Program-made: the position numbers and the translations under genes | In this document: piece after piece, positions 27,664 to 64,000 of the stretch | How the letters are laid out: every line of letters begins with the position of its first letter | How positions within the stretch are numbered: the first letter of the stretch is position 1 | Origin: Sediminitomix flava | GTDB lineage: Bacteria > Bacteroidota > Bacteroidia > Cytophagales > Flammeovirgaceae | Direction of reading: 5' to 3' | DNA length: 64,000 bases | NCBI RefSeq assembly: GCF_003149185.1 | Contig: NZ_QGDO01000003.1 | Location: forward strand, 186,001 to 250,000 | The notes under the pieces: model-generated | Told to the model about the DNA's origin: nothing | What the model saw: the letters and a program-made list of their open reading frames with translations, nothing else | The model's database searches: none

Positions 27664-27672
27664 AGATAAAAA

Positions 27673-27735
27673 GTCAGTAAGCGTGCAGGCTTACTGACTA
27701 CTGCCAAATGCTGTGCAGGCATCGGCAGCTTTTTT
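27673..27735 (+). terminator. Tandem hairpins between GH3 gene and susC
   Basis: Hairpin 1: GTCAGTAAGC (27673-27682) with GCTTACTGAC (27689-27698). Hairpin 2: CTGCC...GC (27701-27711) with GC...GGCAG (27719-27728), followed by seven Ts. Both loops carry GTGCAGG. With no room for a promoter after the T-tract, read-through into susC is probable, so this may be a partial terminator that sets GH3:SusC ratio. Confidence 0.65.
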
Positions 27736-27764
27736 AATCAATGTTTATTTTAACGCAAAATACA

Positions 27765-32312: not shown

Positions 32313-32323
32313 TTTTTAATCTT

Positions 32324-33562: not shown

Positions 33563-33662
33563 TCTTTATTATAGATCAATAAGATTACATTTTTCAGAGT
33601 AAATGCAGTATCCGAAACGGATATGTAGTTTAATTTTTTTAAACATTAAAAAAGAAGCAATC

Positions 33663-35006: not shown

Positions 35007-35038
35007 TTCATAAATAAGTAGTTTAAACAAAAAGCTCA

Positions 35039-35091
35039 AAAACGTCAGTGGACATACCATCTTTTATTAATCGGTATTAAACTGACGTTTT
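35039..35091 (+). terminator. Hairpin between the two GH10 genes
   Basis: AAAACGTCAGT (35039-35049) pairs perfectly with ACTGACGTTTT (35081-35091), with an inner ATACC/GGTAT stem in the loop. The T-tract is within the stem end. It may be an intra-operon attenuator. Confidence 0.6.
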
Positions 35092-35122
35092 GGGTTTCAT
35101 GACAATTTTAAAGACTGACAAC

Positions 35123-41435: not shown

Positions 41436-41489
41436 AATATTTTTTATATGGATAGCTGAATGCTGCCAACTGTAAACTACTATAAGACT

Positions 41490-44576: not shown

Positions 44577-44595
44577 TCCTTAATCAACTGAAGTC

Positions 44596-46197: not shown

Positions 46198-46212
46198 TCA
46201 GGTAATGAAGTT

Positions 46213-46251
46213 AAGCAAAGCCTCTAGGACTTTTGTACGGAGGCTTTGCTT
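46213..46251 (+). terminator. Hairpin after susD2
   Basis: AAGCAAAGCCTC (46213-46224) pairs perfectly with GAGGCTTTGCTT (46240-46251). The T-tract is weak (TTATAT), so partial termination within the operon is likely. Confidence 0.7.
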
Positions 46252-46303
46252 TATATCAGTTAATTGAAATGATATAAGAACAGTCTTCAAACATTATGCA
46301 ATC

Positions 46304-48079
46304 ATGAAAAAGCGAGCGTATTATTCAGTATTGGTTGCCCTTATTGTATCTATTGGCGGTTTTTTATTGGGATTTGATGGGACTGTGAATTCAGGTGCTG
46401 TTCCATTCTATAAAAATACTTTTGATATTGCGGATCAGCCATTTTTGATAGGTTTATCCACTGGGGTGATTATTTTAGGGGGATTTTTTGGAAACCTTAC
46501 AGCAGGTTTTCTTAACGATAAATGGGGTAGAAGACCTAGTCTATTTTTTACTTCTTTTTTATTTATGGCAGGAGCCTTAGGTACGGCTTTAGCTCCAAAC
46601 ATTCTTCTTTTTATCTTTTTTAAACTCATAGCAGGTTACGGAGTTGGTATTGCAATACTTACAGCTCCAGTTTATATTTCTGAAATTGCGCCACCAGATC
46701 AGCGTGGGCGGCTAGTTACATTTAACCAATTAAATATAGTCTTAGGTCTTACTATTGCATATTTTTCCAATTACTACATTTTACAATGGGTAGATGACCC
46801 AGAACTGAACTGGCGTTGGATGTTGGGTGTCGGTTTCTTTCCGGCAGTAGCTTATTTTGGTTTACTTTTCTTCATTCCAGAAAGCCCAAGATGGTTAATC
46901 AAAAAAGGATATGATCAAAAAGCGAAGACAATCCTAGAGAAAATAGGTGGACCAGCTTTGGCAGAAGAAGAGTACGACTGTATTAAAAAGAGTATTGAAG
47001 ATGATGAAAATAGAAAAGAGGGTGGATTATCTGAGTTCTTTTCTAAGAAAATGAAATTGGTACTACTTATTGGTTTTGGTATAGCATTTTTTCAGCAAGT
47101 ATCGGGGATTAATGCTGTGCTTTATTATGCGCCTATGATTTTCCAATCTACAGGTGGAGGGCAAGATGCGGCATTCCTTCAGTCAATAGTGGTAGGTTTG
47201 GTATTTGTGGGAATGACAATCATATCGATGTTCTTGATTGACAGGCTAGGAAGAAAACCACTTCTAGTTATTGGAACCTCTGTGATGTCTATTTCTTTAT
47301 TGATTGCGTCTTTTGGTTTTTATAAAGCCACTTATACGCTGAATGAAGAAAGTATAATGACAATTGAATATGATTTAAGAAGTAATATTGAAAACGCTGA
47401 AAAAGGGATATCTCCGATTGAAAAAGCAAGTCTGTATGCAGAAGTTGATTTACTCGTAAATACACTTAAATCAATTGAAGATATAGAGTTTGACGGTGAG
47501 TTAGTTTTCTTCAACAATATTAAGTCTAAGCTTTTAAGTAGGGGGAATAAGCTGAAGCATCATGAAGGAGAGGCATTTTACAGAGAAATTCATCATTACA
47601 TGATGGATGGAATGAAACAAGATGCTGCTATTGAGAAAGCTGTACTTTCAAAATACAATTCATCTTATAAGAGTATGATCTTAAATAAGAGTATTAGTAT
47701 TAATGATGTGTTGGTTTTAGTAGGTATTCTCGGATTTATTGCTGGTTTCTCAATCTCTTTAGGTCCTGTGACTTGGGCGATGCTACCAGAAATTTTACCA
47801 AATAGACTACGAGCTTTAGGGATTTCAATTTTTGGAGCACTAAACGGAATTACAAGTTTTTCGGTGGCAACAATGTTTCCAATGGAATTGGAGCTTTTAG
47901 GAGCAAGCACAACCTTCCTTGTTTTTGCAATCTTTATGATCATCTGTCTGATCTTCTCATTGACGGTAGTAGTCGAGACGAAAGGGAAATCATTGGAACA
48001 GGTTGAGAAAGAGCTTATAGGAGAAGTTGTGACTAGTGCAGATGAAGTAGTGGAAGAGAAAATAATAATTGGACATTAG
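46304..48079 (+). CDS. MFS sugar porter with ~120-residue periplasmic insert
   Basis: A 591-residue inner-membrane sugar porter. Standard signatures are GGFLLGFDGTVNSGAVPF, NDKWGRRPSLFF, IPESPRWLIKKGYDQKA, FFQQVSGINAVLYYAPMIF, DRLGRKPLLVIG and VETKGKSLEQVEKEL. It is over 100 residues longer than XylE because a charged, helical segment (about 342-462; TYTLNEESIMTIEYDLRSN to KSMILNKSISIND) is inserted between helices 9 and 10, a loop predicted to face the periplasm. It lies 3 bp before a cytosolic GH43 gene, suggesting uptake of xylobiose or longer oligosaccharides that are hydrolysed inside. Substrate is inferred. Confidence 0.88.
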   Translation: MKKRAYYSVLVALIVSIGGFLLGFDGTVNSGAVPFYKNTFDIADQPFLIGLSTGVIILGGFFGNLTAGFLNDKWGRRPSLFFTSFLFMAGALGTALAPNILLFIFFKLIAGYGVGIAILTAPVYISEIAPPDQRGRLVTFNQLNIVLGLTIAYFSNYYILQWVDDPELNWRWMLGVGFFPAVAYFGLLFFIPESPRWLIKKGYDQKAKTILEKIGGPALAEEEYDCIKKSIEDDENRKEGGLSEFFSKKMKLVLLIGFGIAFFQQVSGINAVLYYAPMIFQSTGGGQDAAFLQSIVVGLVFVGMTIISMFLIDRLGRKPLLVIGTSVMSISLLIASFGFYKATYTLNEESIMTIEYDLRSNIENAEKGISPIEKASLYAEVDLLVNTLKSIEDIEFDGELVFFNNIKSKLLSRGNKLKHHEGEAFYREIHHYMMDGMKQDAAIEKAVLSKYNSSYKSMILNKSISINDVLVLVGILGFIAGFSISLGPVTWAMLPEILPNRLRALGISIFGALNGITSFSVATMFPMELELLGASTTFLVFAIFMIICLIFSLTVVVETKGKSLEQVEKELIGEVVTSADEVVEEKIIIGH

Positions 48080-48082
48080 GCT

Positions 48083-49678
48083 ATGAAAACAATTCAAAAT
48101 CCGATACTTAAAGGTTTTAATCCAGACCCTTCAATTATCAGAGTGGGAGAGGATTATTACATAGCAACTTCTACTTTCGAATGGTTTCCGGGTGTTCAGA
48201 TTCATCATTCAAAAGACCTTGTTAATTGGGAATTGATAGGACATCCACTGAATCGAAAAAGTCAGTTGGATATGCTTGGTGTACCTGACTCTTGTGGAGT
48301 ATGGGCACCTTGTCTGACCTACGATAATGGTACTTTCTATTTGGTTTATTCTAATGTGAAGTCTTTCGATGGAGTTTGGAAAGATACGCCAAATTATTTG
48401 GTCACTACAGATGATATCAGAGGTGAATGGTCAGAGCCAATTTATCTGAGTAGTAGTGGTTTTGATGGATCACTTTTCCATGATGAAGATGGCAGAAAAT
48501 GGTTCACTTCTATGATTGTAGACCATAGAAAAGGAAAGTTCTTTGGCGGTATCATCATTCAAGAATATGACAACGTGCAACAGAAGTTAATCGGGAAATC
48601 AGCGCATATTTTTGAAGGAAGTGAGTTAGGAATAACGGAAGGTCCTCATATCTATCAGAAAAATGGATATTATTATCTTTTAACTGCTGAAGGAGGAACA
48701 GAGTATGGACATGCGATTTCTTTGGCTAGGTCTGAATCTCTGATGGGACCTTATGAAATTCATCCAGAAAATCCTGTGATATCGGCAAGAAATCATTCTT
48801 CACATCCACTTCAAAGAGCTGGTCATGGAGATATTGTAGAAACGCCAAATGGTGATTGGTATTGTGTGTTTCTAGTTGGGCGACCGCTAACCAATATAGG
48901 AAGATGTATTTTAGGAAGAGAGACAGCTATTGAGAAAGTAGAATGGAGAGAAGATGGTTGGTTATATGCAAGTAGCGGAAGTGCATTACCAAGAGTTGAG
49001 TTAGAATCACCATCTCCAGAAGTAGATTATAAGCCTTCAACATTATTCTTTGAGGACTTTGAATCTGATTCTTTAAATATTCATTTTCAGTCTTTAAGAA
49101 TACCTGTTTCGGAGGATTGGTTAAGTCTTTCTGAAAGAGAAGGATTCCTACGTTTGTATGGCCGTCAATCTCTTACCTCTAAACATCATCAAAGTTTAAT
49201 TGCTAGAAGAGTTCAGGCATTTCATAGTGTAACCACAGTAGCCTTAGAGTTTTCTCCTGAAAGCTTTCAACAAATGGCAGGCTTGGTATGCTATTACAAT
49301 ACTTCTCATTACTACTATTTACACCTAAGTGGTGATGAAAACGGACAATCGGTGCTCAATATTATAGCGTGTAATAAGTATGGGACATCGGAACCAATGG
49401 ATAAACCAATCCAATTGGGAGATCAATCTCGTGTTTATCTACGAGCAGATTTTAACAGAGACAAACTTCAGTTTTTCTACAGTGTAGACAATAATGAGTG
49501 GCAAAAAGCGGGGGAGGTTTTAGATGGCAGCATTTTATCAGATGACTATGTCAGAGATGGACTTGGTGACATCTATCGCCCTGCTTTTACTGGAAGTTTT
49601 GTTGGGGTATGTTGTCAGGATTTGACGGGACAAAATAAACATGCCGATTTCGATTGGTTTACTTACGAAGAATTATAG
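48083..49678 (+). CDS. GH43 beta-xylosidase, intracellular (XynB type)
   Basis: A 531-residue GH43 enzyme with no signal peptide. The five-bladed propeller carries the catalytic set: base D15 in GFNPDPSIIRVG, pKa modulator D128 in SGFDGSLFHDEDG, and acid E186 in GITEGPHIYQ. These positions coincide with those of characterised GH43 subfamily 11 beta-xylosidases. The C-terminal beta-sandwich (about 325-531; LFFEDFESDSLNIHFQSLR ... ADFDWFTYEE) completes the active site. It hydrolyses xylobiose and short xylo-oligosaccharides to xylose in the cytosol. It starts 3 bp after the MFS gene and ends 3 bp before the GH26 gene, so the three form one operon. Confidence 0.94.
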   Translation: MKTIQNPILKGFNPDPSIIRVGEDYYIATSTFEWFPGVQIHHSKDLVNWELIGHPLNRKSQLDMLGVPDSCGVWAPCLTYDNGTFYLVYSNVKSFDGVWKDTPNYLVTTDDIRGEWSEPIYLSSSGFDGSLFHDEDGRKWFTSMIVDHRKGKFFGGIIIQEYDNVQQKLIGKSAHIFEGSELGITEGPHIYQKNGYYYLLTAEGGTEYGHAISLARSESLMGPYEIHPENPVISARNHSSHPLQRAGHGDIVETPNGDWYCVFLVGRPLTNIGRCILGRETAIEKVEWREDGWLYASSGSALPRVELESPSPEVDYKPSTLFFEDFESDSLNIHFQSLRIPVSEDWLSLSEREGFLRLYGRQSLTSKHHQSLIARRVQAFHSVTTVALEFSPESFQQMAGLVCYYNTSHYYYLHLSGDENGQSVLNIIACNKYGTSEPMDKPIQLGDQSRVYLRADFNRDKLQFFYSVDNNEWQKAGEVLDGSILSDDYVRDGLGDIYRPAFTGSFVGVCCQDLTGQNKHADFDWFTYEEL

Positions 49679-49681
49679 ACG

Positions 49682-50812
49682 ATGAGCAGATTAAAAGTAT
49701 TAGCGTTGTTTCTCCTTAGTCTCTCAATTTGGGCATGTGGAGAACAAAAAGAACAAGCGACTCTAGAAGCTTCAACAGATGAGCGTCCTAGAGCCAAATT
49801 TGAACCCTCAGATGGAGAAGTTATTCTGTTTGCAGGTCAGAGTTTAGCTGCATTAGGCGGATTGGATGAGTACAATGATGGCTATTTAGACCATTTTGAA
49901 ACGCCAGGTGGTTTCACGATGTACACAAAGATTTTACCTCCACAAAGAGAAATAAATCATAAGTATGAATTGTTACCTGGTTTAGTAACAACAGATGATT
50001 GGGGGGATGGACCTAACAATATGCAACTGCAAATTGATGATACAGACTTCCAGCATTCGGCACTTGCAATTGGTTTGGAGTTAGTTGATTACGAAAATGC
50101 AACAGCCAATGGTGAAATGGATTCTATGGTTATCGCTCTCGGAGAATGGATCAAAGGATTAGGAAATAGACCTGTTTTTCTAAGAATAGGTTATGAATTT
50201 GATGGCCATGATTGGAATCATTATGATCGAGAAGGCTACCTTGGAGCTTATAAAAGAATCTACCATATGTATGACTCTATGCAGATTGATAACATTGCTT
50301 ATGTTTGGCAAAGTACGGGTTGGGGATCATCTTATATGGATTTAAAAGATTGGTATCCTGGTGATGAGTACGTGGATTGGTGTGCGTATTCACATTTTGC
50401 AAGACATCCTGAAGCAGCTCCTTTATTTCAGTTTGCAAGAGACCACAAGAAGCCAGTGATGATCGCTGAAGCTACTCCAACTTTACCAACTGAAACTATA
50501 AAAACAGATGGGAAGACGAAAGAAACAAAGTTGGATAATCCTACTCAAGCACAAGAAGCATTGGAGCAATGGTTCAAACCATTTTTCCAAGTAGTCTATG
50601 AAAATGAGGATGTTGTTAAGGCTATTCATTATATAAATACAGATTGGCATAACTATTCAATGTGGAAGACGAATCCTACTTTCCAAGATATAGATGCGAG
50701 GCTTCAATTAAATCAAGAAATAAAGAGCTATTGGATAGAAGAAACTTCAAAGCCAAAATATTTGAAAGCATCACCTGATTTGTTCTCTAAACTATGGGGG
50801 ATTGAGGAATAA
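49682..50812 (+). CDS. GH26 lipoprotein, beta-1,3-xylanase-like
   Basis: A 376-residue lipoprotein (lipobox LSLSIWAC, Cys19). GH26 features: acid/base E172 in PVFLRIGYEFDGHDWNHYD, substrate-site NIAYVWQSTGWG, WYPGDEYVDWCAYSHF, and nucleophile E263 in KPVMIAEATP. The RIGYEFDG and YPGDEYVDW patterns recall GH26 beta-1,3-xylanases of marine bacteria more than beta-mannanases. It should act at the outer membrane surface on beta-1,3-xylosyl linkages of algal xylan. It is the last gene of the SusCD-MFS-GH43-GH26 operon and begins 3 bp after the GH43 stop. Mannanase or another GH26 activity remains the alternative. Confidence 0.8.
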   Translation: MSRLKVLALFLLSLSIWACGEQKEQATLEASTDERPRAKFEPSDGEVILFAGQSLAALGGLDEYNDGYLDHFETPGGFTMYTKILPPQREINHKYELLPGLVTTDDWGDGPNNMQLQIDDTDFQHSALAIGLELVDYENATANGEMDSMVIALGEWIKGLGNRPVFLRIGYEFDGHDWNHYDREGYLGAYKRIYHMYDSMQIDNIAYVWQSTGWGSSYMDLKDWYPGDEYVDWCAYSHFARHPEAAPLFQFARDHKKPVMIAEATPTLPTETIKTDGKTKETKLDNPTQAQEALEQWFKPFFQVVYENEDVVKAIHYINTDWHNYSMWKTNPTFQDIDARLQLNQEIKSYWIEETSKPKYLKASPDLFSKLWGIEE

Positions 50813-50859
50813 TTAAAGTGATATAAATAGTTATTAGATAGTTCTCGAGTATGTGTTAA

Positions 50860-50907
50860 AGTGTTGCCACTAAGTTTGTGTTGTGCTTATGTGGTAACAC
50901 TATTTTT
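50860..50907 (+). terminator. Terminator of locus 2
   Basis: AGTGTTGCCAC (50860-50870) pairs with GTGGTAACACT (50891-50901) with one G-U pair, followed by ATTTTTTG. Confidence 0.85.
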
Positions 50908-51034
50908 TGTTAGATATAAAGTGATTTTCAATTCGGGTGAATTTCTAAAATTCTATTAGGGGAACGATTATATCTTAGTTTAATGAAGTTCTGTATCGTA
51001 TGATGACCTATTTTTAGTTGGTGTGAAATGCTAC

Positions 51035-51077
51035 AATCCTACCTAAAATCGAGGCTATAGATTTTAAGTAGGATTTT
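51035..51077. other. Second hairpin in the gap before the GH38 gene
   Basis: AATCCTACCTAAAATC (51035-51050) pairs with GATTTTAAGTAGGATT (51060-51075), one mismatch, 9-nt loop. The remaining gap (50908-51289) is AT-rich with no gene seen; the GH38 promoter should lie in its right half. Confidence 0.5.
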
Positions 51078-51289
51078 CTGCTTTTAAATAACTGTTTTCA
51101 ATTCTTAAAGAAATAGTTTTTACACTCTTCTGATTTACTTTTATTGTAATAAATTGAATATGTAACTGTTAACATTTATGGTTTAACAATTGATAAATGT
51201 AATCTTCACGCATTTTATAGATCTTTACTCTCAACAAGCATTCTTACTTACCATAAGTAAACTAAACGACAACCACACACTTAATAAAC

Positions 51290-54200
51290 ATGACAAGGAG
51301 TAAAGAAAGATCGGTAAGATTAACACTGTGCTTATTCTTACTAAGCCTTTTACCACTTAGCCTATTTGCACAAGAAAAATTATTCTTAAAAGGGTTTACA
51401 AAGCACAAACACGGAGAATTGATGCCTTACAAATCTCCTCAAGAAGATGCCAGTCAAGCCATGCTCATTCGTTGTATGGAAGGCAAAAACAGTATGGAAT
51501 GGGAATCCGAAGCCATACCAAGTTCTTTCAAAGGAGAATATGTAGAATTTGGGGCGATCATGGGAGTTGATATTGATCGTGCAATGTATAGCTATGATTT
51601 CTACCTCAACGATAAAAAATATTTCACCTTCAAAGCTCCCGAAGAAAGCATTTTGCAAGATGTACACGCAGAAGGACCTAACGGATCTTCTCTGACATTC
51701 AAAGGCACAATGATTGACACTTACAGCGACCTTTTTGGTTATGTATTCTTCAAAATAAAAGCAGAAGATCTTCCAAGAGATGAACCGATCCGATTTAAAG
51801 CTGTGGCTCCTAGTATCGGGAAGTCAAGTTGGATGATGCTTTTCCGATATGGACTTGAAGGAAATGTAAGTTGGAAACAAGAACCTGCCGTTGTCAAAAC
51901 ACCTAAAGGTTCTAAGCAACTGTTGAGAACAACTATTCTACATTATGGAGAACCTACTTCTGCCACTATTATAGCGGGCAAGTCAAAAGAAAAAGTGACA
52001 CTCAATGTAGGAGCTAATGTTTTTAGAGTAAAAGTGCCAAAGCTAGAAGAGGAAACAAAAATGCCTGTAAAAGTCATAGTCAATAAACAGGTACTCGATG
52101 AAAGAACTTTGACACTAACACCTGTAAAACCATACGACCTTTACTTATTACATCATTCTCACGTAGATATTGGCTACACACATACGCAAGATGAGGTTGA
52201 GAAAATGCAATGGAAAAACCTTGACGATGCCGTAATGATGAGCCAAAAGACAGCCAATTATCCTGAAGGCTCAAAATTCAAATGGTCAGTAGAAGTGATG
52301 TGGGCAGTAGAAAGCTACCTCAAACAAGCAAGCCCTGCTCAGAAAACTGCATTTTTAGAAGCTGTAAAAAATGGCTCGATTGCACTAGAAGGCCTCTATG
52401 GAAACATGCTCACAGGACTCTCTAATCCGCAAGAGCTGGTAGAATCTACTTTTGATGCCTTACAAGTTTCTGACGAAGTAGGTGTGCCATTAACTTCTGC
52501 AATGATTACCGACGTACCAGGCTATACATGGGGTTTGGTTCCCGTATTGGCTCACTCTGGAGTGAAATATCTTTCCGCAGGAACAAACGTTTTCCACCGA
52601 ATTGGCGGAACGATCTCAACTTGGGGAGACAGACCATTCTATTGGATATCGCCATCAGGTGAAGAAAAAATCATGGTTTGGGTTCATGAGAAAGGATATT
52701 CTCATTTCCACACCGGTTTAGGTTTTACAGACTTAAAGGTACTGCTTACTCCAAAATCGGTATTTGATTATCTAAACGAATTGAATGACCGAAATTACCC
52801 TTACGACATCACAACCTTAAGATATACAGTAGGTTCTGACAATGGCCCTGTAGACCAAGGAATCAGTGAAACTGTGAAAGAATGGAATGAAATTTATGAA
52901 ACACCGAAAGTAATTCTTTCTACCACAACCGAATCTTTTCAAGCATTTGAAGACAAATACGGAGATCAACTGCCTGTTGTAAAAGGAGATTTCACACCTT
53001 ATTGGGAAGATGGTGCGGGTTCTACCTCAAAAGAAACAGCAATAGTAAGAAATGCATCTGAGCGTCTTTCTCAAGCCATGACTTTGCTTTCTTTAAACCA
53101 AGTACAAATCCCAAATGAGAAATTTGAAGAGGCTTGGCGTTGTGTTTTACTTTACAACGAGCACACTTGGGGAGCTTACAATTCGATCTCTGAACCAGAA
53201 GCTGATTTTGTACATTCACAATGGGCCGTCAAACAATCATTTGCACTAAAAGCAGATAGCATTGCCTCGGAATTATTGGATTTAGCTTTGGCTTCTTCAG
53301 AAAAATCAGAAGGTATTGTATTGACCAATTCATTGAGTTGGGAAAGGTCGGGAATTATCCGTTTGTCAAAAGAGCAATCTGAAAAAGGAGATAAAGTAGT
53401 TGACAAAAATGGAAATCTACTTCCTTCGCAACGTCTGAACACAGGAGAATTAGCTGTTTGGGTAGAAAATCTGGAAGCATATGGTACAAAAGAAATTTTT
53501 GTAGAAAAAGGGAATGCATTCGCCCCTAAATCACTTACGACAGAAAACACAACAATCAAAAGTGAGTTCTTAACACTTGAGATAGACACAGAGACAGGCG
53601 CTATAACCAAATTGTACGATAAAGTCAGAAAGCAGAATTTTGCAAATACAAAAGAGCTGAAAGGACTAAACGACTACTACTATGTAGCAGGTAGAAATCC
53701 GAAAGCTCCAAAAACAACTGGAAATGATATTCAAATCAATATCATAGAAGCAGGAGGTGTGTTGAGTACTTTAGAAATTACATCATCAGCACCGGGTGCA
53801 GAAGAATGGAAACGTTACATCACGATCAATGCTTTTGATAATTCTATTGGAATTGATAACCGTATCAATAAAACCAACATTTACGATCCTGAAGGAGTCC
53901 ATATTGCATTCCCGTTCAATGTAGAAAATGGAGATGTTCGTATAGATGTGCCATTCGGTGAATACATCCCAGAAGTAGAGCAGTTGCAAGGTTCTTGTAA
54001 AAACTACTTTACCGTACAGCGATATGTAGACGTTTCAAATATTGATTATGGTATCACTTGGGCCTCACCAGATGCTCCAATGATCGAACTGGGAGAAATC
54101 ACAACCGATGCTCTCTCTTACGGTTGGGTACAAGAAGTAAAACCGACCCAAACGGTCTATGCCTACTTGATGAATAACTATTGGGAAACTAATTACAAGG

Positions 54201-54589
54201 CGAGTCAAGATGGCTGGCATCAATTCCGATTTGCCCTAAAACCACATGGCAGTTATGTATCTAGTCAGGCCAAAAAATTCAGTACTGAAATCTCTCAGCC
54301 AATTCTGATTAGTGAAACAGCAAATAACGGATTTGAAGCAATCTTAACTCCACAGTCAGAACATACAATTGTTACAGCTTCAAGACCGATGTCAGACAAT
54401 ACAGTTCTCGTAACAATCTTGAATGCCTCTGCTGCCCCTCAACAATTAGAATGGGAAACCTCAGAGAAAGTCTCAAATATTTACTTGTCAAATATTAATG
54501 GAGATAAAATGGAAAACTATCAAGAAGGTGAAGAATTGCCTGCTTGGGGATTGCGTTTTCTTCTGATTGAAAAGAATACAGGTATTTAG
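51290..54589 (+). CDS. Exported GH38 alpha-mannosidase-like protein
   Basis: A 1099-residue secreted protein: signal peptide (LTLCLFLLSLLPLSLFAQ), an N-terminal beta region of about 260 residues, then the GH38 catalytic barrel. Zinc ligands H291 and D293 are in YLLHHSHVDIGYTHTQDE; the likely nucleophile is D408 in AMITDVPGYTWG. A three-helix bundle (LYNEHTWGAYNSISEPEAD) and large beta-sandwich domains follow. Most bacterial GH38 enzymes are cytosolic or shorter; the exported form suggests attack on external mannosides such as glycoproteins. It stands alone, without SusCD or other mannan genes, between two terminators. Exact linkage specificity cannot be read. Confidence 0.85.
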   Translation: MTRSKERSVRLTLCLFLLSLLPLSLFAQEKLFLKGFTKHKHGELMPYKSPQEDASQAMLIRCMEGKNSMEWESEAIPSSFKGEYVEFGAIMGVDIDRAMYSYDFYLNDKKYFTFKAPEESILQDVHAEGPNGSSLTFKGTMIDTYSDLFGYVFFKIKAEDLPRDEPIRFKAVAPSIGKSSWMMLFRYGLEGNVSWKQEPAVVKTPKGSKQLLRTTILHYGEPTSATIIAGKSKEKVTLNVGANVFRVKVPKLEEETKMPVKVIVNKQVLDERTLTLTPVKPYDLYLLHHSHVDIGYTHTQDEVEKMQWKNLDDAVMMSQKTANYPEGSKFKWSVEVMWAVESYLKQASPAQKTAFLEAVKNGSIALEGLYGNMLTGLSNPQELVESTFDALQVSDEVGVPLTSAMITDVPGYTWGLVPVLAHSGVKYLSAGTNVFHRIGGTISTWGDRPFYWISPSGEEKIMVWVHEKGYSHFHTGLGFTDLKVLLTPKSVFDYLNELNDRNYPYDITTLRYTVGSDNGPVDQGISETVKEWNEIYETPKVILSTTTESFQAFEDKYGDQLPVVKGDFTPYWEDGAGSTSKETAIVRNASERLSQAMTLLSLNQVQIPNEKFEEAWRCVLLYNEHTWGAYNSISEPEADFVHSQWAVKQSFALKADSIASELLDLALASSEKSEGIVLTNSLSWERSGIIRLSKEQSEKGDKVVDKNGNLLPSQRLNTGELAVWVENLEAYGTKEIFVEKGNAFAPKSLTTENTTIKSEFLTLEIDTETGAITKLYDKVRKQNFANTKELKGLNDYYYVAGRNPKAPKTTGNDIQINIIEAGGVLSTLEITSSAPGAEEWKRYITINAFDNSIGIDNRINKTNIYDPEGVHIAFPFNVENGDVRIDVPFGEYIPEVEQLQGSCKNYFTVQRYVDVSNIDYGITWASPDAPMIELGEITTDALSYGWVQEVKPTQTVYAYLMNNYWETNYKASQDGWHQFRFALKPHGSYVSSQAKKFSTEISQPILISETANNGFEAILTPQSEHTIVTASRPMSDNTVLVTILNASAAPQQLEWETSEKVSNIYLSNINGDKMENYQEGEELPAWGLRFLLIEKNTGI

Positions 54590-54700: not shown

Positions 54701-55096
54701 TTACTTTTTAAGAGCTAAGATTTTCTTTTGAATACTAGAGAAATTAGTTTCTCCTTTTTCAATTTTTTGAACCAAAGCTTTTTGGTAATACTCAAAAGCC
54801 ATTTGATCTAAACAATGAAGCGCTAAATAATCACCTTTCAATTCTAGGTTTGAAGCTGTTTCCTTGATTGCAATTGAGTGTTCAATCCAAGTATAAGCTT
54901 CAGACATATTTTGCTTGTCTTTTACACATACTTTTGCAGCTGCTAAAGGTGTTTCCCAGTCCATCGCAGTAGATAGAGCTACTTTTTTTCTGAGTCTATC
55001 ATATTTGTTTGCATCTAAATCGAATAAATCATTTGATGCAAATGCGTTTGCAGAAAGGGCAATAGTTGTAGCGAAAGTAAAGATCAATTTTTTCAT
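54701..55096 (-). CDS. Small exported helical protein of unknown function
   Basis: A 131-residue protein with a clear signal peptide (KKLIFTFATTIALSANAFA). The mature part is helical and charged, with segments such as PLAAAKVCVKDKQNMSEAYTW and CLDQMAFEYYQKAL that look like one or two TPR-type repeats. Two cysteines (in KVCVK and LHCLDQ) may form a disulfide. I recognise no family. It is a single-gene unit, convergent with the GH38 gene and divergent from the PD40 gene. Role unknown. Confidence 0.7.
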   Translation of the reverse strand: MKKLIFTFATTIALSANAFASNDLFDLDANKYDRLRKKVALSTAMDWETPLAAAKVCVKDKQNMSEAYTWIEHSIAIKETASNLELKGDYLALHCLDQMAFEYYQKALVQKIEKGETNFSSIQKKILALKK

Positions 55097-56632: not shown

Positions 56633-59600
56633 ATGAAAAAATATATCACTTCTATCTTGTGCATAGGAGGGTTGCTTTTTAGTGCCCAAACTTTTGCACA
56701 AGTCCCTGCCAATGTGCCTCAACTTTTGACAGGAAAGAAAATTGCAATCGACCCTGGTCATGGAGGTCACGATTCAGATGACCGAGAAACACCTTTAGGA
56801 AATGGATTTACATATTATGAATCTGATGGTGTTTGGGAAATGGGGCTTATTCTTCAAGATATCTTAGATGAAGTAGGTGCCAATACAAAACTTACAAAAA
56901 CCAACAATAGCATTACAGCTCCAGACCGTGATCCTTCATTATCAGAAAGGGTAGCAGTAGCCAATGCTTTTGATGCGGACTATATGCATTCCATTCATAC
57001 AAATGCGGGTGGTGGTTCTGCAAACTATACACTTCTTCTTTATCGAGGAATAAATAGTACACCATCTTGGCCAGATGCCAAAGTTATGGGAGGTATTATG
57101 ACTCAGCGATTGAAAGATTATATGTATACGACAGACGCTTACAATCGTGCAGATAGAGATTTTCTTCCTTACTATTTGGGTGTATTAAGTGGAACACAAA
57201 TGCCTGCTACATTATCAGAAGGTTCATTCCATGATAATTTGCCAGAAGGTAAGAGATTGATGAGTAGCATGTACAGAAGAGCGGCTGCTTGGGCTATGGC
57301 CAAATCATTCTTTGAGTTTTATAATACAGGACAACTTCCATACGGAGAAGTTGGTGGTTTATTAAGAGATAATTCTGGAACACCTATTAATGCAGTTACT
57401 TGTACGATCAACCCGGGTACATCAGATGCGAGAACGGTTACAGTAGATAATGCAGACAACGGTTATTACATTTTTGATTGGTTAGACGCAGGAAATTATA
57501 CGATAGAGTTTAGCAAATCTGGCTATGCAACAACCATTCAGAATGTAACGGTTACTTCTGGAGGATATACTCAAACAGATGTGACCATGATTGACCTTGG
57601 TGATCCTCCAGCTCGTCCTACTTTAGCTTTTGTTGGAAACCCAAATGGAGGTACTTCAGTAGAAGCAAGATGGTCATTGACTTCGGGAGCTACAGGTTAT
57701 CGTTTGTACTATGCTGAAAATGATAACTTGACTTCATGGAAATTGGCAGCTGATGAAAACACATTGACTTCATCATCGACACAAGTAACACTGAACAGCG
57801 CTGCTGATTTTGTAGATGTCCCTTCTAGCGATGTTTATCATTTCAGATTAGTGGCTACTTCTGTTGGTACAGGAGGTGTAATCTTGGAAAGCGAAACTTC
57901 AGATGTTTATTCTCGTTCGTCAAATACTTCTGGAGATGCAGTCTTAATTGTAGATGGTTTTGACAGAAATACAGGTTCTTATACTGGAGCTACACATTCG
58001 TTTGTTACAGGTTATTTCAAATCTCTAAGAGATAGTAAAAGTGTGGTTGTAGAGTCTACAGATAACTCAAAAGTAGCAGATGGTACGGTTGTACTTACAG
58101 ACTATGAAGCGGTTGTATGGTTTGTGGGTGATGAGTCTACGAACGCTGAAACATTCGCAACAGCAGAACAGACCAAAGTACAAGCCTATTTAGAAGCAGG
58201 TGGAAAGCTATTTGTAAGTGGATCAGAAGTAGGATGGGATTTATGGGAGAAAGGTACTTCAACAGATCAAGCGTTCTATACAAATTACTTGAAAGCTGCT
58301 TACCAAAGTGATGGTGCTGGAAATTATTCACCAGCAACAGGAGTTTCAGGAACTGCATTCGCAGGAGTTTCTGTGCCATTCGGAATCACATATACAGAAG
58401 ATTATGCTGATGATATCGATCCTGTAAGTGGTGCAACTTCAATCTTGACTTATGCTGAAGCTGGTAAAGCTGGTGGTGTGGCATATACAGGAACATTTGG
58501 TGGCGGAACACAGTCTGGAGCTGTGGTTTACGTTTCATTCCCTGCAGAAACAGCTGCCTTAAGTGACCAAACCACATTGATGGGTAAAGTATTGGATTAC
58601 TTCAATGTAAGTGCTGTAAATGTAGCTCCTATTGCGAATAATGATCAAGCGTCAACAACACAAGATGTAGCTATTAGTATCAATGTACTTTCTAATGATA
58701 CAGATTCAAATATTGATGCTTCAACATTGACAATTGTAGCAAACGCAAGCAATGGAACAGCGGTAGTAAATAATGGTCAAGTTGATTATACTCCTTCTTC
58801 AGGGTACATTGGTTCAGATAGTTTTACTTATCAAGTTTCAGATACAGAAGGACTTGTTTCAAATGTAGCAACTGTAAATATTGATGTTTTAGAGTTACTT
58901 AACTGTGCAGGTGAAGGAACAGAAATTAATCCTGATAAGCCAAAGAGAGATTTCAGAGCATCATGGATTTCTACAGTAGCAAATATTGATTGGCCATCTT
59001 CTCCAAATCTATCAGTGGCAGCACAACAAGCTGAACTTATCGGTTTGATAGATGGATTGAAAGAAAGTGGTGTAAATGCTATTTTATTCCAAGTAAGACC
59101 AGAGTGTGATGCATTATATGCTTCAACTATAGATCCTTGGTCATATTATTTGACAGGTCAGCAAGGGCAAGCTCCTTCGCCATTCTACGATCCGCTTACT
59201 TTTGCAATTGATGAAGCTCACAAAAGAGGTATGGAACTTCACGCTTGGTTAAATCCTTACAGGGCACAACAAGGAACGCCTAGCCTTTCATCTTCTCACG
59301 TAGCTAGCCAACATCCTGACTGGGTGATGGATTTCACTGAAAGAGATATTCTTAACCCAGGTATTCCTGCGGTTAGAGATTATGTAGTTTCAGTAATCAA
59401 TGATATTGCAAGTCGTTACGATGTAGATGGTATTCATTTTGATGATTATTTCTACCCTTACTCTGGTATGGGAAGCCAAGATGCTTCAGCTTTTGCAAGT
59501 TATAACCCGAATAGTTTGAGTCTTGCGGATTGGAGAAGAGACAATGTAAATAAATTAGTTGAAATGGTGTTTGATGAAATTCAACTAGTAAATCAAGCAC

Positions 59601-62281
59601 AAAATAAGAGTATCAAGTTTGGTATTTCTCCATTTGGTATCTGGAAAAGTGGTGTTCCTTCAGGAATTTCTGGAATGTCTGCATATGATGTAATTTACGC
59701 TGATGCCTTGGCTTGGTTAAGTGCAGGTACTGTAGATTATATTTCTCCTCAATTGTATTGGGATTTTGGTGGCGGACAAGATTATGCTGCATTATCAACT
59801 TGGTGGGATGACCAAGCAGCAGCGGCAGGTAAGCTACATTACCCAGGACTTGGTTTATATCGTCTTGTTGATTCTGGAAGTTGGCCTGCATCTACTATTC
59901 AATCAATGATTGATGAGAACAGATTAGCGAAGAATGAGGCGACAAAAGGTCAAATTTTCTTCACGACAAATAACCTTACAGATAACGATAAAGGGATTAA
60001 AACAGCACTTCAAGGTGATCAGTACCAATATCCATCTGTTGTTCCAACAATGTCTTGGAAAGAATCAGTTTGTCCGAATGTGCCTTCTAACTTCCGTTAT
60101 GAAGGCGGTGACTTGGTTTGGGATGCTCCTTCGGCGGCATCAGATGGCGATTTAGCTGAGCGTTATGCTGTATATAGATTTTCTTCTTTAGCTGAACTAA
60201 CAACAAATCTTCACGATGGAACAAAGCTAGTTGCTGTAACTGGAGAAACTTCAGTGGGTGTAGCATCAGCTTGGTTAACAGGAACAGATAACTACTTTGT
60301 AGTTTCGGCTTTAGATAAAAATAGTAACGAAAGTGGGTTCACGGCATCTGTAAATATTGCAGGAAATGTACAATACTGTGCTGCTCAAGGAAACAATACG
60401 ACTTATGAGTGGATTGCAGGTGTTGCAATTGGAGCTATTACTAAGTCAAGTGGTAGTGATGGTGGTTATGCAGATAAAACAGCTGAATCTTTCCCACTAA
60501 CTATTGGAAATACTTACAGTTTAACATTGACTCCAGGCTATGCAAGTACAGCTTATAATGAGAATTGGAAAGTATGGATTGACTTTAATGAAGATGGTGA
60601 TTTTGATGATACTGATGAACTAGTTTACGCAATAGGTAGTGTTGCTAAAAATGCAGTATCAGGTTCGCTTACAATTCCTGCTGGTGTAAGTGCGGGTAAT
60701 AAACGTATGCGTGTAGGAATGAATGGTTCTTCATCAGATTATACTTTGAATTCTTGTGGTTCATTTGCTTATGGTGAAGTAGAGGATTATACCGTATCTT
60801 TAACTGCTCCAACTCCTGTAGCACCAGTAGCAAACAATGATTCAGAATCAGTACAATCTGCGGTAGCAGTTGCTCTAGCTGTATTAGCGAATGATACTGA
60901 TACAAATGGCGATATAGACGTTTCAACAGTGACTATTGTTTCAGCTGTTTCAAATGGTTTTACTTCAGTAAATGCATCTACAGGTGTGATTACTTATACA
61001 TCTAATGTAGGATTTACAGGAACTGATAGCTTTACATATACTGTACAAGATCAATCAGGTTTAACGTCAAATACTGCAACAGTAACAATTAGTGTTACAG
61101 ATTTACCACCTGCCCCTTGTGCTTCGAGTAATCATAATGCCACTTATGAGTGGATTGATAATGTGACTTTTGGAGCATTTAGTAATACGTCAGGTAGTGA
61201 TGGTGGATATGGAGATTATACTTCTCAAACTATTTCTGGTGTAAGCACTGGAGGTCAATATTCAATTAGCTTGAAACCAGGTTTCCAAAGTACTGCATAC
61301 CAAGAGCATTGGAAAGTTTGGATTGACTTCAACGCTGATGGTGATTTTGATGATGCAGGAGAAGAATTGTTTGATACTTACGGAACAGGTACTGCTGCTG
61401 TTACAGGTTCTATTACTATACCATTTGATGTGACTTCGGGTACAAAAACAATGCGTGTGGGTATGAATGGTACTTCAGCAGATTATACGCTGACTCCATG
61501 TAATGCATTTACTTACGGTGAGGTTGAGGACTATTATATCTTTATCAATAACACGGGTTGTACTCCTCCAGCGGTTACATCTATGGTTATTGACAATAAT
61601 GATACTGGATATTCTGAAACTGGAACGTGGATCTCAAGTACATCAACAGCAGGGTACATTGGTTCAGGTTACCGTCATGAAGGAGATGCAAACAAAGGAA
61701 ATGCATCTGTAACATACGCACCAGATATTACTGTAGATGGAACATATGAAGTATTTATTTTCTATACAGCTGGTTCAAACAGAGCAACAAATGCACCTGT
61801 AGATATCAATCATGCAAATGGTACTACTCAAGTAATCGTTAATCAACAGAATAACAACACAACTTGGGTTTCTTTAGGGACATACAGCTTCTTGGCAGGT
61901 TCAGGAAATGCAGTCTTGAAAAATGATGGTACTGATGGTGTAGTTATCGCAGATGCTATGCGATTTGACTTTGTGAATTGTAATGTGGCATCTTCTCGTA
62001 AGTCAATTGAAGACGGAGTTGCTGGATTAGAATCACCAGTATTATACCCTAACCCTGTAGTTGACAGAGCACAAGTGAAGTTTAATTCAGAGGTAGAGGG
62101 TGAAGTTACAATTCTACTATATGCTCAAACAGGTGAACTTGTAGGAGAAACGGTAGAACAAGGAATTAAAGGACTTAATGTCTTGAATATTCCAACAGCC
62201 CAACTTAGTACAGGAGTTTACATCGTTCAAGTGATTGAAGCTGATGGTAAAACTTCTTACTTAAGAATGTTGAAAAACTAA
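56633..62281 (+). CDS. T9SS-secreted N-acetylmuramoyl-L-alanine amidase / GHL10 glycosidase fusion
   Basis: An 1882-residue secreted multidomain protein. In order: signal peptide; Amidase_3 zinc amidase (about 33-240; H43 in IDPGHGGHDSD, E69, H122 in HSIHTNAGG, E196 in LSEGSFHDN); carboxypeptidase-regulatory-like domain (about 240-325); FN3-like (about 330-430); a Rossmann-like domain starting VLIVDGFDR (about 435-660); cadherin-like (about 663-758); GHL10 glycosyl-hydrolase-like barrel (about 770-1140; RASWISTVANIDWPS, HAWLNPYRAQQ, VDGIHFDDYFYPY); FN3-like; GEVED; cadherin-like; GEVED; golvesin-C-like beta domain (about 1643-1780); T9SS sorting domain (LYPNPVVDRAQVKF ... YLRMLKN). It should strip peptides from peptidoglycan and cut the glycan outside the cell. 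Confidence 0.88.
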   Translation: MKKYITSILCIGGLLFSAQTFAQVPANVPQLLTGKKIAIDPGHGGHDSDDRETPLGNGFTYYESDGVWEMGLILQDILDEVGANTKLTKTNNSITAPDRDPSLSERVAVANAFDADYMHSIHTNAGGGSANYTLLLYRGINSTPSWPDAKVMGGIMTQRLKDYMYTTDAYNRADRDFLPYYLGVLSGTQMPATLSEGSFHDNLPEGKRLMSSMYRRAAAWAMAKSFFEFYNTGQLPYGEVGGLLRDNSGTPINAVTCTINPGTSDARTVTVDNADNGYYIFDWLDAGNYTIEFSKSGYATTIQNVTVTSGGYTQTDVTMIDLGDPPARPTLAFVGNPNGGTSVEARWSLTSGATGYRLYYAENDNLTSWKLAADENTLTSSSTQVTLNSAADFVDVPSSDVYHFRLVATSVGTGGVILESETSDVYSRSSNTSGDAVLIVDGFDRNTGSYTGATHSFVTGYFKSLRDSKSVVVESTDNSKVADGTVVLTDYEAVVWFVGDESTNAETFATAEQTKVQAYLEAGGKLFVSGSEVGWDLWEKGTSTDQAFYTNYLKAAYQSDGAGNYSPATGVSGTAFAGVSVPFGITYTEDYADDIDPVSGATSILTYAEAGKAGGVAYTGTFGGGTQSGAVVYVSFPAETAALSDQTTLMGKVLDYFNVSAVNVAPIANNDQASTTQDVAISINVLSNDTDSNIDASTLTIVANASNGTAVVNNGQVDYTPSSGYIGSDSFTYQVSDTEGLVSNVATVNIDVLELLNCAGEGTEINPDKPKRDFRASWISTVANIDWPSSPNLSVAAQQAELIGLIDGLKESGVNAILFQVRPECDALYASTIDPWSYYLTGQQGQAPSPFYDPLTFAIDEAHKRGMELHAWLNPYRAQQGTPSLSSSHVASQHPDWVMDFTERDILNPGIPAVRDYVVSVINDIASRYDVDGIHFDDYFYPYSGMGSQDASAFASYNPNSLSLADWRRDNVNKLVEMVFDEIQLVNQAQNKSIKFGISPFGIWKSGVPSGISGMSAYDVIYADALAWLSAGTVDYISPQLYWDFGGGQDYAALSTWWDDQAAAAGKLHYPGLGLYRLVDSGSWPASTIQSMIDENRLAKNEATKGQIFFTTNNLTDNDKGIKTALQGDQYQYPSVVPTMSWKESVCPNVPSNFRYEGGDLVWDAPSAASDGDLAERYAVYRFSSLAELTTNLHDGTKLVAVTGETSVGVASAWLTGTDNYFVVSALDKNSNESGFTASVNIAGNVQYCAAQGNNTTYEWIAGVAIGAITKSSGSDGGYADKTAESFPLTIGNTYSLTLTPGYASTAYNENWKVWIDFNEDGDFDDTDELVYAIGSVAKNAVSGSLTIPAGVSAGNKRMRVGMNGSSSDYTLNSCGSFAYGEVEDYTVSLTAPTPVAPVANNDSESVQSAVAVALAVLANDTDTNGDIDVSTVTIVSAVSNGFTSVNASTGVITYTSNVGFTGTDSFTYTVQDQSGLTSNTATVTISVTDLPPAPCASSNHNATYEWIDNVTFGAFSNTSGSDGGYGDYTSQTISGVSTGGQYSISLKPGFQSTAYQEHWKVWIDFNADGDFDDAGEELFDTYGTGTAAVTGSITIPFDVTSGTKTMRVGMNGTSADYTLTPCNAFTYGEVEDYYIFINNTGCTPPAVTSMVIDNNDTGYSETGTWISSTSTAGYIGSGYRHEGDANKGNASVTYAPDITVDGTYEVFIFYTAGSNRATNAPVDINHANGTTQVIVNQQNNNTTWVSLGTYSFLAGSGNAVLKNDGTDGVVIADAMRFDFVNCNVASSRKSIEDGVAGLESPVLYPNPVVDRAQVKFNSEVEGEVTILLYAQTGELVGETVEQGIKGLNVLNIPTAQLSTGVYIVQVIEADGKTSYLRMLKN

Positions 62282-62296
62282 TTCAAATTTAGATAT

Positions 62297-62332
62297 GACC
62301 GTAGTGTGGAAACATGCTACGGTCTTTTTTTT
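62297..62332 (+). terminator. Terminator after amidase-GHL10 gene
   Basis: GACCGTAG (62297-62304) pairs with CTACGGTC (62317-62324), followed by an eight-T run. Confidence 0.92.
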
Positions 62333-62352
62333 ACCCTCAATTTACTTATGAA

Positions 62353-64000
62353 ATGAAACACATTTACTGGAGAGCCCTACTCCTTACGTTGTTCTTTGGG
62401 TATCATTCACTTCATGCCCAAGAGATTTTCAAAAACAAATTACAGAATGCATTACGTACCGCTTGGGAAAAAACAAGTATTCCAGGTATAGGTTTAGCCG
62501 TTTCAACCCCTGATCAAGGAATGATTTTTACTTCTGTAGGTATCGGGAATATTTACACCAATTCCGCTATTACAGAAGAAAGTCGCTTTCTCATCGCTAG
62601 TAACTCAAAGACTTTTACTGCAGCATTGGTACTTCGTTTACAGGATGCTGGATACTTTGATATTGACGATAAATTGTCTGATCACCTGATTGTATCTGGT
62701 TTACCCAATAATTATAGCATGACCATTCGTCAATTGCTTAACCATTCGGCAGGTGTATATGACCATTTTAATAACAGTAACTATTGGAGTTTGGCTACAG
62801 CTCAACCCTATAAAGTATTTACTGATGCTGAAGTGATGTCTTACTCAAATGCTTTAGGTCCTTCATTTTCACCAGGAAGTTCATATTCATATTCCAATGC
62901 TGGTTTTTATCTTTTAGGAATGTTGGTAGAGGCGAAGCTTGGTATTTCAGCAAGAGAAGCAATGGATCAGTGGGTGATACAACCTATGGGCTTAGACCTA
63001 AGCTTTTTAGATGACAGCAGTGATCCATCAAACAAAATTCCATACTTAGCCGAAAATAGTCGAGCTTACGAGTATCATAAAAGTTCAATTACTACGGCAG
63101 GTTCAATGGTGGCTACTCCTCAGAATGTAGCACAATTTGCAAAGGCTGTTTTTAGTGAAGGATTCTTATCTTCTTCATCACTAAATGAAATGATTGCTCC
63201 GTCAACGAGAAATAGCTCATACGGTTTGGGAACAAGAAGATTCTCAGATAATGGCGTTACGCATTATGGTCACACAGGTACTTTGGCAGGCTATAAAAGT
63301 TACATGTACTATATCCCTTCTATGGATGTATCTGTTGCTATGCATGCAAATGCCTACACAGACCCTTCTTCATTATGGTTTGATATTGTAGATGCTGTTT
63401 TTGATGTTGTTACACAAGAATACGGTTCTTATTGTCAGAATAATAACTGTAATGCACCATCTCGTCCAAGACTTTTAACTTCTAAAAATAATGTAGATGG
63501 AAGCTTTACTTTGGAATGGATAGCGAATACTGAAACAGATTTGTCGGGTTACCGAATTTATTATTCTACATCTGATAATTTGAGTAACTGGCAAATAGCC
63601 GCAAATGAAGCTTCTCTTTCACCTTCAACATCTAGTTTTACTTTCTCATCTACTTCAGCTTTTGAAGTTCCTACGGCAGAGTCTACGGTATTTTTAAAAT
63701 TGGTAGCTGTTGGTGATGATGGTCTTGAAAGTGAAAGTAGTGATGTGTATGTTCGCTCCGACAATGCCAATGGAAAGAAAGTATTGATCGTAGATGGTTT
63801 TGATAGAACTGGAGGAAGTGCTTCTTGGGGAAGTGTAACGCATAATTTTGCTGCAGATTACTTAAAAGTATTTAGAGATGCAGAAGGAAGCCAATTATCG
63901 GTTTCATCGATTGCGAATGAAGCTCTAACAAGTGGTTTGACTTATCTGCAAGATTATGACATGGTCATTTGGTTCTTAGGAGATGAGTCAACTATTGCAG
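62353..64000 (+). CDS. Exported serine hydrolase (beta-lactamase/DD-peptidase clan) with FN3 and DGFDR domains, 3' truncated by window
   Basis: The frame opens at the ATG at 62353 and has no stop to the window end (549 codons seen), so it is partial. A signal peptide (WRALLLTLFFGYHSLHA) leads to a class C beta-lactamase-type domain (about 25-355): S83-x-x-K86 in IASNSKTFTAAL, Y180-x-N in YSYSNAGFYLLG and H307-T-G in YGHTGTLAGYKS. An FN3-like domain follows (SGYRIYYSTSDNLSNWQ), then VLIVDGFDRTGG ... MVIWFLGDES, the same module pair seen in the preceding amidase-GHL10 protein. D-amino acid peptidase or esterase action is likely; peptidoglycan is suggested by context. A T9SS domain may lie beyond the window. 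Confidence 0.85.
   Translation, partial: MKHIYWRALLLTLFFGYHSLHAQEIFKNKLQNALRTAWEKTSIPGIGLAVSTPDQGMIFTSVGIGNIYTNSAITEESRFLIASNSKTFTAALVLRLQDAGYFDIDDKLSDHLIVSGLPNNYSMTIRQLLNHSAGVYDHFNNSNYWSLATAQPYKVFTDAEVMSYSNALGPSFSPGSSYSYSNAGFYLLGMLVEAKLGISAREAMDQWVIQPMGLDLSFLDDSSDPSNKIPYLAENSRAYEYHKSSITTAGSMVATPQNVAQFAKAVFSEGFLSSSSLNEMIAPSTRNSSYGLGTRRFSDNGVTHYGHTGTLAGYKSYMYYIPSMDVSVAMHANAYTDPSSLWFDIVDAVFDVVTQEYGSYCQNNNCNAPSRPRLLTSKNNVDGSFTLEWIANTETDLSGYRIYYSTSDNLSNWQIAANEASLSPSTSSFTFSSTSAFEVPTAESTVFLKLVAVGDDGLESESSDVYVRSDNANGKKVLIVDGFDRTGGSASWGSVTHNFAADYLKVFRDAEGSQLSVSSIANEALTSGLTYLQDYDMVIWFLGDESTIA

Follow-up and report, generated by a model that had tools for sequence, protein, structure and literature searches.

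A predicted T9SS-exported protein that joins an Amidase_3 domain to a GHL10 barrel, a putative bifunctional digester of peptidoglycan

Why would a single polypeptide carry both an amidase of the kind that strips peptides from peptidoglycan and a GHL10 barrel of the kind that cuts glycan? The question is raised by one gene in a 64,000-nucleotide stretch of DNA (the window; G000:C3:186001-250000) from a 6.6 Mb genome whose relatives are Bacteroidota. The original prediction for this gene was that Amidase_3, GHL10, and T9SS sorting domains lie in one secreted product, with the product of one active site serving as the substrate of the other. The reading we favor, and consider probable though well short of assured, is that the protein would be a T9SS-exported bifunctional peptidoglycan digester, in which the amidase strips and the GHL10 barrel cuts.

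The gene (56633-62281, + strand) is an uninterrupted open reading frame of 1882 aa that has exactly these limits in the ORF listing of the window. A Pfam scan of the product reported 13 families. Among them, Amidase_3 (PF01520) scores 77.6 bits against a cut-off of 27, GHL10 (PF02638) scores 206 bits against 27.9, and Por_Secre_tail (PF18962, residues 1804-1874) scores 35.2 bits against 27. Of the two NCBIfam models suggested at the outset, TIGR04183 matches with 31.5 bits against a cut-off of 23, and TIGR04131 is absent from the families that the NCBIfam scan reported. The claim of a single polypeptide with the three domains thus holds, as does that of GEVED, golvesin-like, and cadherin-like modules: Pfam finds GEVED twice, Golvesin_C, and Big_9 twice, the last in the same stretches that cadherin-like models match. 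The genome also encodes the PorU sortase (1174 bits against a cut-off of 420); together, the T9SS tail and the PorU gene support predicted export of the protein by T9SS. Table 1 collects the features.

Table 1. Features of the fusion gene and of its immediate neighbors, in window coordinates
Feature	Position	Strand	Basis or remark
TolB-like secreted-looking protein, 277 aa	55730..56563	+	ORF; conserved partner directly upstream of amidase gene
Signal-peptide-like start, residues 1-23	56633..56701	+	By eye from sequence
Amidase_3 domain, residues 37-224	56741..57304	+	Pfam, alignment, model
CarboxypepD_reg-like domain, residues 240-319	57350..57589	+	Pfam
FN3 + GATase-1/ThuA-like domain, residues 325-662	57605..58618	+	Predicted structure, fold comparison; without Pfam match
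Big_9 / cadherin-like domain, residues 663-750	58619..58882	+	Pfam
GHL10 barrel, Pfam 774-1073, Cwp19 homology to about 1140	58952..60052	+	Pfam, alignment
GEVED domain 1, residues 1311-1388	60563..60796	+	Pfam
Second Big_9 / tandem-95-like domain, about 1398-1500	60824..61132	+	Pfam/NCBIfam, limits approximate
GEVED domain 2, about 1500-1645	61130..61570	+	Pfam second stretch, limits by eye
Golvesin C-terminal-like domain, residues 1651-1778	61583..61966	+	Pfam
T9SS type A sorting domain, residues 1804-1882	62042..62278	+	Pfam, NCBIfam
Tandem paralogue, 1886 aa in all, past window end	62314..64000	+	L009:10315-15975; 32 bases after fusion stop
S12 DD-peptidase-like domain of paralogue	about 62443-63360	+	Homology to R61

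The amidase half retains its active-site residues, with one correction to the set first proposed (H43, E69, H122, and E196). Specifically, H43, E63, H122, and E196 are invariant in an alignment of 31 of 31 amidase-subfamily sequences, and it is E63 that lines up with a Glu in two solved amidases, Cwp6 (5j72) and CwlD (7rag). Column 69 is neither invariant nor nearly so in the same 31 sequences, and we rejected E69 as a zinc ligand in favor of E63. In the Amidase_3 family, residues at these positions act as the zinc ligands (H43, E63, and H122) and as the catalytic Glu (E196). The predicted structure of the domain (pLDDT 93.9) has CwlV as its best fold match (1jwq, E 2.8e-14) and also matches other Amidase_3 structures. 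The domain thus resembles CwlV, Cwp6, CwlD, and AmiC in profile, zinc-site residues, and predicted fold. It differs from them in belonging to a Bacteroidota subfamily that has a CarboxypepD_reg domain, a middle region, and a T9SS tail, and in being fused to GHL10.

The closest solved chain to the GHL10 half is the Clostridioides difficile lytic transglycosylase Cwp19 (PDB 5oq2, E 7.9e-128). Thirteen pocket residues of Cwp19 are given in its structure paper (PMC5765458). Their counterparts in the fusion are W778, Q820, W872, R877, D937, D938, Y939, S999, Q1040, Y1042, G1072, F1110, and T1111; 12 of the 13 are kept, and Thr (T1111) replaces Ser368. Escherichia coli DigH (YddW), which is 38% identical to the fusion barrel over 358 positions, has the same 12 residues. 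The proposal that the barrel is of the DigH kind is borne out to this extent, and its assignment to the DigH/Cwp19 type is supported. One yardstick in the original prediction, an acidic pair as the mark of an active barrel, proved unsuitable. According to the same structure paper (PMC5765458), Gly328, conserved in GHL10, takes the place of the second catalytic acid that is usual in related barrels, and the fusion carries the equivalent glycine, G1072. Because the second acid is a conserved glycine in this family, an acidic pair is the wrong criterion, and we discarded it.

Peptidoglycan glycan is the likeliest substrate of the barrel, a view supported by the pocket match and by fusions and neighborhoods with amidases and NamZ, described below. 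How tightly the two reactions would be coupled is a separate matter. DigH is described, in a citing paper, as a specific degrader of denuded (amidase-made) glycan. The original claim of a substrate handed from one site to the other is nevertheless too strict: purified Cwp19 is reported to release peptide-bearing anhydromuropeptides, including GlcNAc-anhydroMurNAc with its stem peptide, and to give reducing-end products at unsubstituted MurNAc. Because Cwp19 also cuts beside peptide-bearing MurNAc, an amidase–GHL10 relay need not be strict, and facilitation rather than strict dependence is the best reading.

The same two classes of Cwp19 product could also be expected if both domains attack peptidoglycan independently, GHL10 cutting with or without peptides and the amidase adding a second kind of cut, neither depending on the other. 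The reported specificity of DigH, whose pocket the fusion has in common, argues against such independence. So does the report that Cwp19 frees nothing soluble from the C. difficile vegetative wall but does free soluble material from the wall of M. lysodeikticus, which has bare MurNAc. We consider independent action unlikely, although deserving of real weight, and we continue to favor facilitated, sequential digestion.

The site of action is suggested by the tail. Export by T9SS would place the protein outside the outer membrane and therefore favors scavenging or attack over division. Remodeling of the producer's own wall, for example in division, has a precedent in DigH, which with amidases is reported to act at the E. 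coli septum. Here, the T9SS tail should take the protein past the outer membrane and away from the sacculus. Moreover, the genome has other Amidase_3 genes, along with a 510 aa and a 536 aa GHL10 protein that both lack a T9SS match, and these could do this work. An own-wall role is thus very improbable, and extracellular digestion is the preferred reading.

The predicted structure of residues 325-662, which lie between the amidase and the barrel, has a pLDDT of 91.4. It shows an FN3 domain and, after it, a domain similar to GATase-1/ThuA-like chains at Z about 12-13 and to parts of GH42 enzymes at Z about 14-16. The fold that this predicted domain has in common with GATase-like and GH42 chains shows no function. 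With a limit of E 1e-10, 66 of the 395 phylum genomes sampled contain the FN3 and GATase-like domain, which sits variously in amidases, in S12 proteins, and in other long proteins. We rejected the idea that it is specific to wall enzymes, given weaker copies at 6 loci in long proteins that match neither amidase nor GHL10.

The genes on either side of the fusion, neither of them mentioned in the original prediction, offer further context. The TolB-like protein upstream has no match in a Pfam scan. Of 29 loci (L059-L087), 23 have a homologue immediately upstream of the amidase gene, and in two more the homologue begins after that gene; one homologue (L302) matches PD40 propeller repeats. Downstream lies the tandem paralogue. 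The best solved relative of its N-terminal S12 domain is the Streptomyces R61 D-Ala-D-Ala carboxypeptidase (E 3.4e-32), with which it aligns at motifs that we take to be SxxK, YSN, and HTG. The paralogue has the middle region, golvesin, GEVED, and T9SS tail in common with the fusion, its GHL10 and T9SS tail lying beyond the window; it differs from R61 in joining the S12 domain to an altered GHL10 and a T9SS tail. In that GHL10, DRIRFP stands in place of DDYFYP, and the equivalents of Cwp19 Gln77, Arg132, and Asp196 are missing. Beyond the paralogue is a repeat-protein gene whose WG-repeat nature was recognized by eye. The TolB-like gene, the fusion, the paralogue, and the repeat-protein gene occur in the same order in a genome of another genus (G017). 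Peptidoglycan-recycling genes (MurQ, AmpG, kinase, epimerase, SusCD) are not adjacent to the fusion, whose neighbors are the TolB-like gene and the paralogue.

Elsewhere in the window, positions 25039-36265 hold a xylan-type locus (GH3, TonB plug, SusD, CBM, GH10 twice, and a transporter), and positions 41460-54589 hold a mannoside-type locus (SusD, transporter, GH26, and GH38) with a 1038 aa gene at 41460. Between the mannoside-type locus and the TolB-like gene lies a 131 aa open reading frame (54701-55096, - strand) that starts in a signal-like manner and lacks a Pfam match.

The G017 orthologue is 68% identical to the fusion over residues 1-1392 and 48% identical over residues 1642-1881. 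Identity is concentrated in the catalytic domains, the best-kept parts of the protein: 283 of 366 residues are identical in GHL10 and 132 of 188 in Amidase_3, compared with 25 of 79 in the T9SS tail. The orthologue lacks the second Big_9 domain and most of GEVED domain 2. Because conservation is highest in both catalytic domains, the fusion is not an assembly artifact. The pattern also bears on whether one or both barrels are inactive, the protein being mainly an adhesin or a wall-binding scaffold of GEVED, golvesin, and Ig-like modules. Most of its length is noncatalytic, and the paralogue has lost three pocket residues. Nevertheless, all four amidase residues are present, as are 12 of 13 in the GHL10 pocket, and between orthologues the accessory blocks come and go whereas both catalytic domains persist. 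We therefore give an inactive scaffold very little credence relative to an active digester.

This architecture is rare. A whole-protein search of 18 genomes of the family found it in two, the source genome and G017. Among 194 genomes of the order, a set that overlaps the 18, the amidase subfamily is matched at E below 1e-100 only in these same two genomes. In 395 genomes of the phylum, the strong amidase-subfamily matches listed (E below 1e-40), the window gene aside, lie in open frames of 540-892 aa. A widespread fusion is thus rejected, and a related-locus search with the fusion protein alone as query returned no relatives. The source genome itself encodes an unfused amidase-T9SS protein that is 60% identical to residues 1-663. 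TolB-like genes accompany both this stand-alone amidase and the amidase gene of G017. The source genome further encodes an S12-middle-T9SS protein without GHL10.

Although the particular architecture is rare, the pairing of the two activities recurs in other forms; at least five amidase–GHL10 fusions are confirmed by sequence among the GHL10 proteins scanned, a subset of the total (the source gene, its G017 orthologue, G012, G370, and L187). In G012, of the same family, a 1355 aa protein with a lipobox-like start, recognized by eye, has the reverse order (GHL10 44-340, Amidase_3 1178-1347). In G370, of another class of the phylum, a GHL10-Amidase_3 frame with a DRIRYP-type GHL10 and an ambiguous predicted start directly follows a 931 aa GHL10-NamZ fusion; the two are separate open reading frames, not one fusion. 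The latter (L178:8357-11149) carries GHL10, NamZ_N, and NamZ_C in a single frame, and NamZ is, by its domain description and a title in a reference list, an exo-beta-N-acetylmuramidase family. In a Chitinophagaceae MAG (L187, the top match in the GTDB GHL10 search, with 54% identity), a borderline SLT-like domain, Amidase_2, the same middle region, Big_9, GHL10, and a T9SS tail occur together. Amidase_2 and Amidase_3 have unrelated folds.

Adjacent genes provide a third form of the pairing. In G099, G193, G052, and G064, a GHL10 gene is followed on the same strand by an Amidase_3 gene. We rejected open-frame length in a genome search as proof of fusion, given that the two halves in G099 are separate frames. 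After this pair, G099 has genes for a NagK-like kinase, an AmpG-family MFS protein, an NlpC/P60-SH3 protein, and an L-Ala-D/L-Glu-epimerase-like protein; the AmpG, NagK, and epimerase names are at family level, with NCBIfam scores below curated cut-offs. G193 and G052 show the same gene order, judged from ORF starts only. In G245, GHL10, TolB-like, and Amidase_3 genes share one strand, and in G310 and G259, GHL10 is accompanied by a golvesin-type protein and an AmpG-family gene. Of four golvesin-type proteins scanned, one matches Amidase_3, below the cut-off (E 0.0034), and such neighbors are possible amidases. In all, several lineages pair an amidase with GHL10, whether by placing a non-homologous amidase on the common scaffold, by reversing the domain order, or by setting the two genes side by side. 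A different grouping is seen in a Paludibacteraceae MAG (L221:8172-19376), where four consecutive GHL10 frames of 571 to 1167 aa lie on one strand.

How general is the association? Counts were taken from lists of best matches in the 395-genome sample, with 4 Mb assumed for every genome, the source genome excluded, and second and third pieces among middle-domain rows set aside. On this basis, 12 genomes have GHL10 and a middle-domain protein no more than 5 kb apart, always on one strand, where random placement predicts 0.45 pairs. These neighbors are largely of the golvesin type, putative amidases. Ten of the 12 genomes belong to one family, which implies few independent events. For A1-type amidases within 5 kb of GHL10, the same lists give two pairs against 0.36 expected, after removal of amidase rows that match only CarboxypepD_reg, of rows for a second piece of the same gene, and of a portion of the weakest rows. 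In the GTDB search, among the best 80 of 578 confirmed GHL10 matches, 34 of them without full flanks, Amidase_3 occurs within up to 10 kb in none, with a model whose sensitivity was 61 of 62. By single-sequence search of these 80 loci, Amidase_2 occurs in one and S12 in none. NamZ lies near GHL10 in five of the 80, three of them Pontibacter. The amidase–GHL10 link thus holds in particular lineages, and most of the GHL10 genes sampled do not show it.

Several observations count against the digester reading: the mere two A1-type pairs where 0.36 are expected, the concentration of ten of the 12 middle-domain neighbors in one family, the zero of 80 loci, the lack of adjacent recycling genes, and DogH, another GHL10 enzyme, with reported activity on starch, cellobiose, and melibiose. 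One alternative is that GHL10 acts on a glycan other than peptidoglycan (capsule, plant, or algal polysaccharide), with the amidase a separate tool on the same carrier. The activity of DogH on starch, the xylan- and mannoside-type loci upstream, and the lack of a nearby amidase at most sampled GHL10 genes would all suit such a role. Against it stand the identity of the pocket with those of Cwp19 and DigH, the joining of GHL10 to amidases and to NamZ, and the NamZ genes near GHL10 in the GTDB loci. We judge another glycan improbable and retain peptidoglycan as the predicted target.

A possible destination for the products lies elsewhere in the source genome. At about C1 969330-991172 (L314, L010, L315) are SusD, a SusC-like gene assigned by eye, and two GHL10 genes. 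Two regulator-like genes lie between these and a cluster of BadF-type kinase (31.2 bits, cut-off 31.5), MurQ (359.9 against 168), GNAT, AmpG-family (192 against 350), and GH3 genes. The combined SusC/SusD-GHL10 and MurNAc-salvage-like region is a candidate peptidoglycan utilization locus. Two NamZ genes lie elsewhere in the genome. GHL10 genes of a third type, with GDDRLPA for DDYFYP (L013:3052-6273 and L013:1987-2961), lie beside a phosphodiester glycosidase (NAGPA) gene.

The mechanism we envision runs as follows. The N-terminal zinc amidase would cut the MurNAc-L-Ala bond, removing stem peptides. The GHL10 barrel would then cut the MurNAc-GlcNAc backbone, most readily at stripped or thinly substituted strands and probably hydrolytically where MurNAc is bare. 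The FN3/GATase-like, Big_9, GEVED, and golvesin modules may serve as spacers or anchors for both enzymes. The tandem DD-peptidase-like paralogue would act on the cross-links of the same peptidoglycan. The material digested would probably be peptidoglycan outside the cell, belonging to bacteria that are dead, lysed, or under attack, and it would probably serve as food. The gene, its domains and active-site residues, its synteny in one other genus, and the recurrent pairing in some lineages come directly from the computational analysis; both activities, export, the order of action, and the nutritional role we infer.

Parts of this scheme have precedents. Atl-type staphylococcal autolysins combine an amidase and a glucosaminidase in one polypeptide. 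They resemble the fusion in pairing an amidase with a glycan cutter in one chain and differ in drawing on other amidase and glycosidase families; a Glucosaminidase domain is absent from the 13 Pfam families of the fusion. Relay from an amidase to an enzyme acting on denuded glycan is known for SpoIIP and SpoIID. The same is reported for amidases with RlpA or DigH. Cwp19 belongs to the same GHL10 subfamily as the fusion and is reported to cut peptidoglycan, but it has one catalytic domain with cell-wall-binding repeats and neither amidase nor T9SS tail. DigH, reported to work after amidases, differs in being a 439 aa protein that is separate from them and acts in the producer's own envelope. 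Bifunctional wall hydrolases and denuded-glycan relays are thus already known; what appears new is their combination with GHL10 on a scaffold of T9SS type, together with the swapping of partner enzymes, neither of which was found in open-license literature listings. An amidase–GHL10 fusion is likewise not described in the titles and abstract openings of the open-license literature on DigH, GHL10, NamZ, and T9SS amidases.

We speculate further, as a tentative proposal that could readily prove wrong, that DDY-type GHL10 supplies the glycan-cutting activity in a "strip and cut" peptidoglycan module that arose more than once in the Bacteroidota, with its peptide-side partner recruited by reaction rather than by ancestry. 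On one T9SS-type scaffold, the partner would be Amidase_3 here, Amidase_2 with an SLT-like domain in Chitinophagaceae, and an R61-like DD-peptidase in the paralogue with its altered GHL10. The tandem pair, with four domains on two proteins, would then dismantle walls outside the cell and supply the MurNAc salvage loci that the genome carries elsewhere.

GHL10 is a wide and barely characterized family whose substrate is unsettled, with published reports pointing to peptidoglycan for Cwp19 and DigH and to starch for DogH. For the DDY subfamily, natural fusions and gene neighborhoods that involve amidases, NamZ, AmpG-like proteins, and MurQ indicate peptidoglycan. The fusion protein provides a test case for dependence on stripped strands within one chain. 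If three unrelated peptide-side enzymes have indeed been swapped on a single T9SS scaffold, the case would reveal how extracellular wall degraders are assembled in the Bacteroidota.
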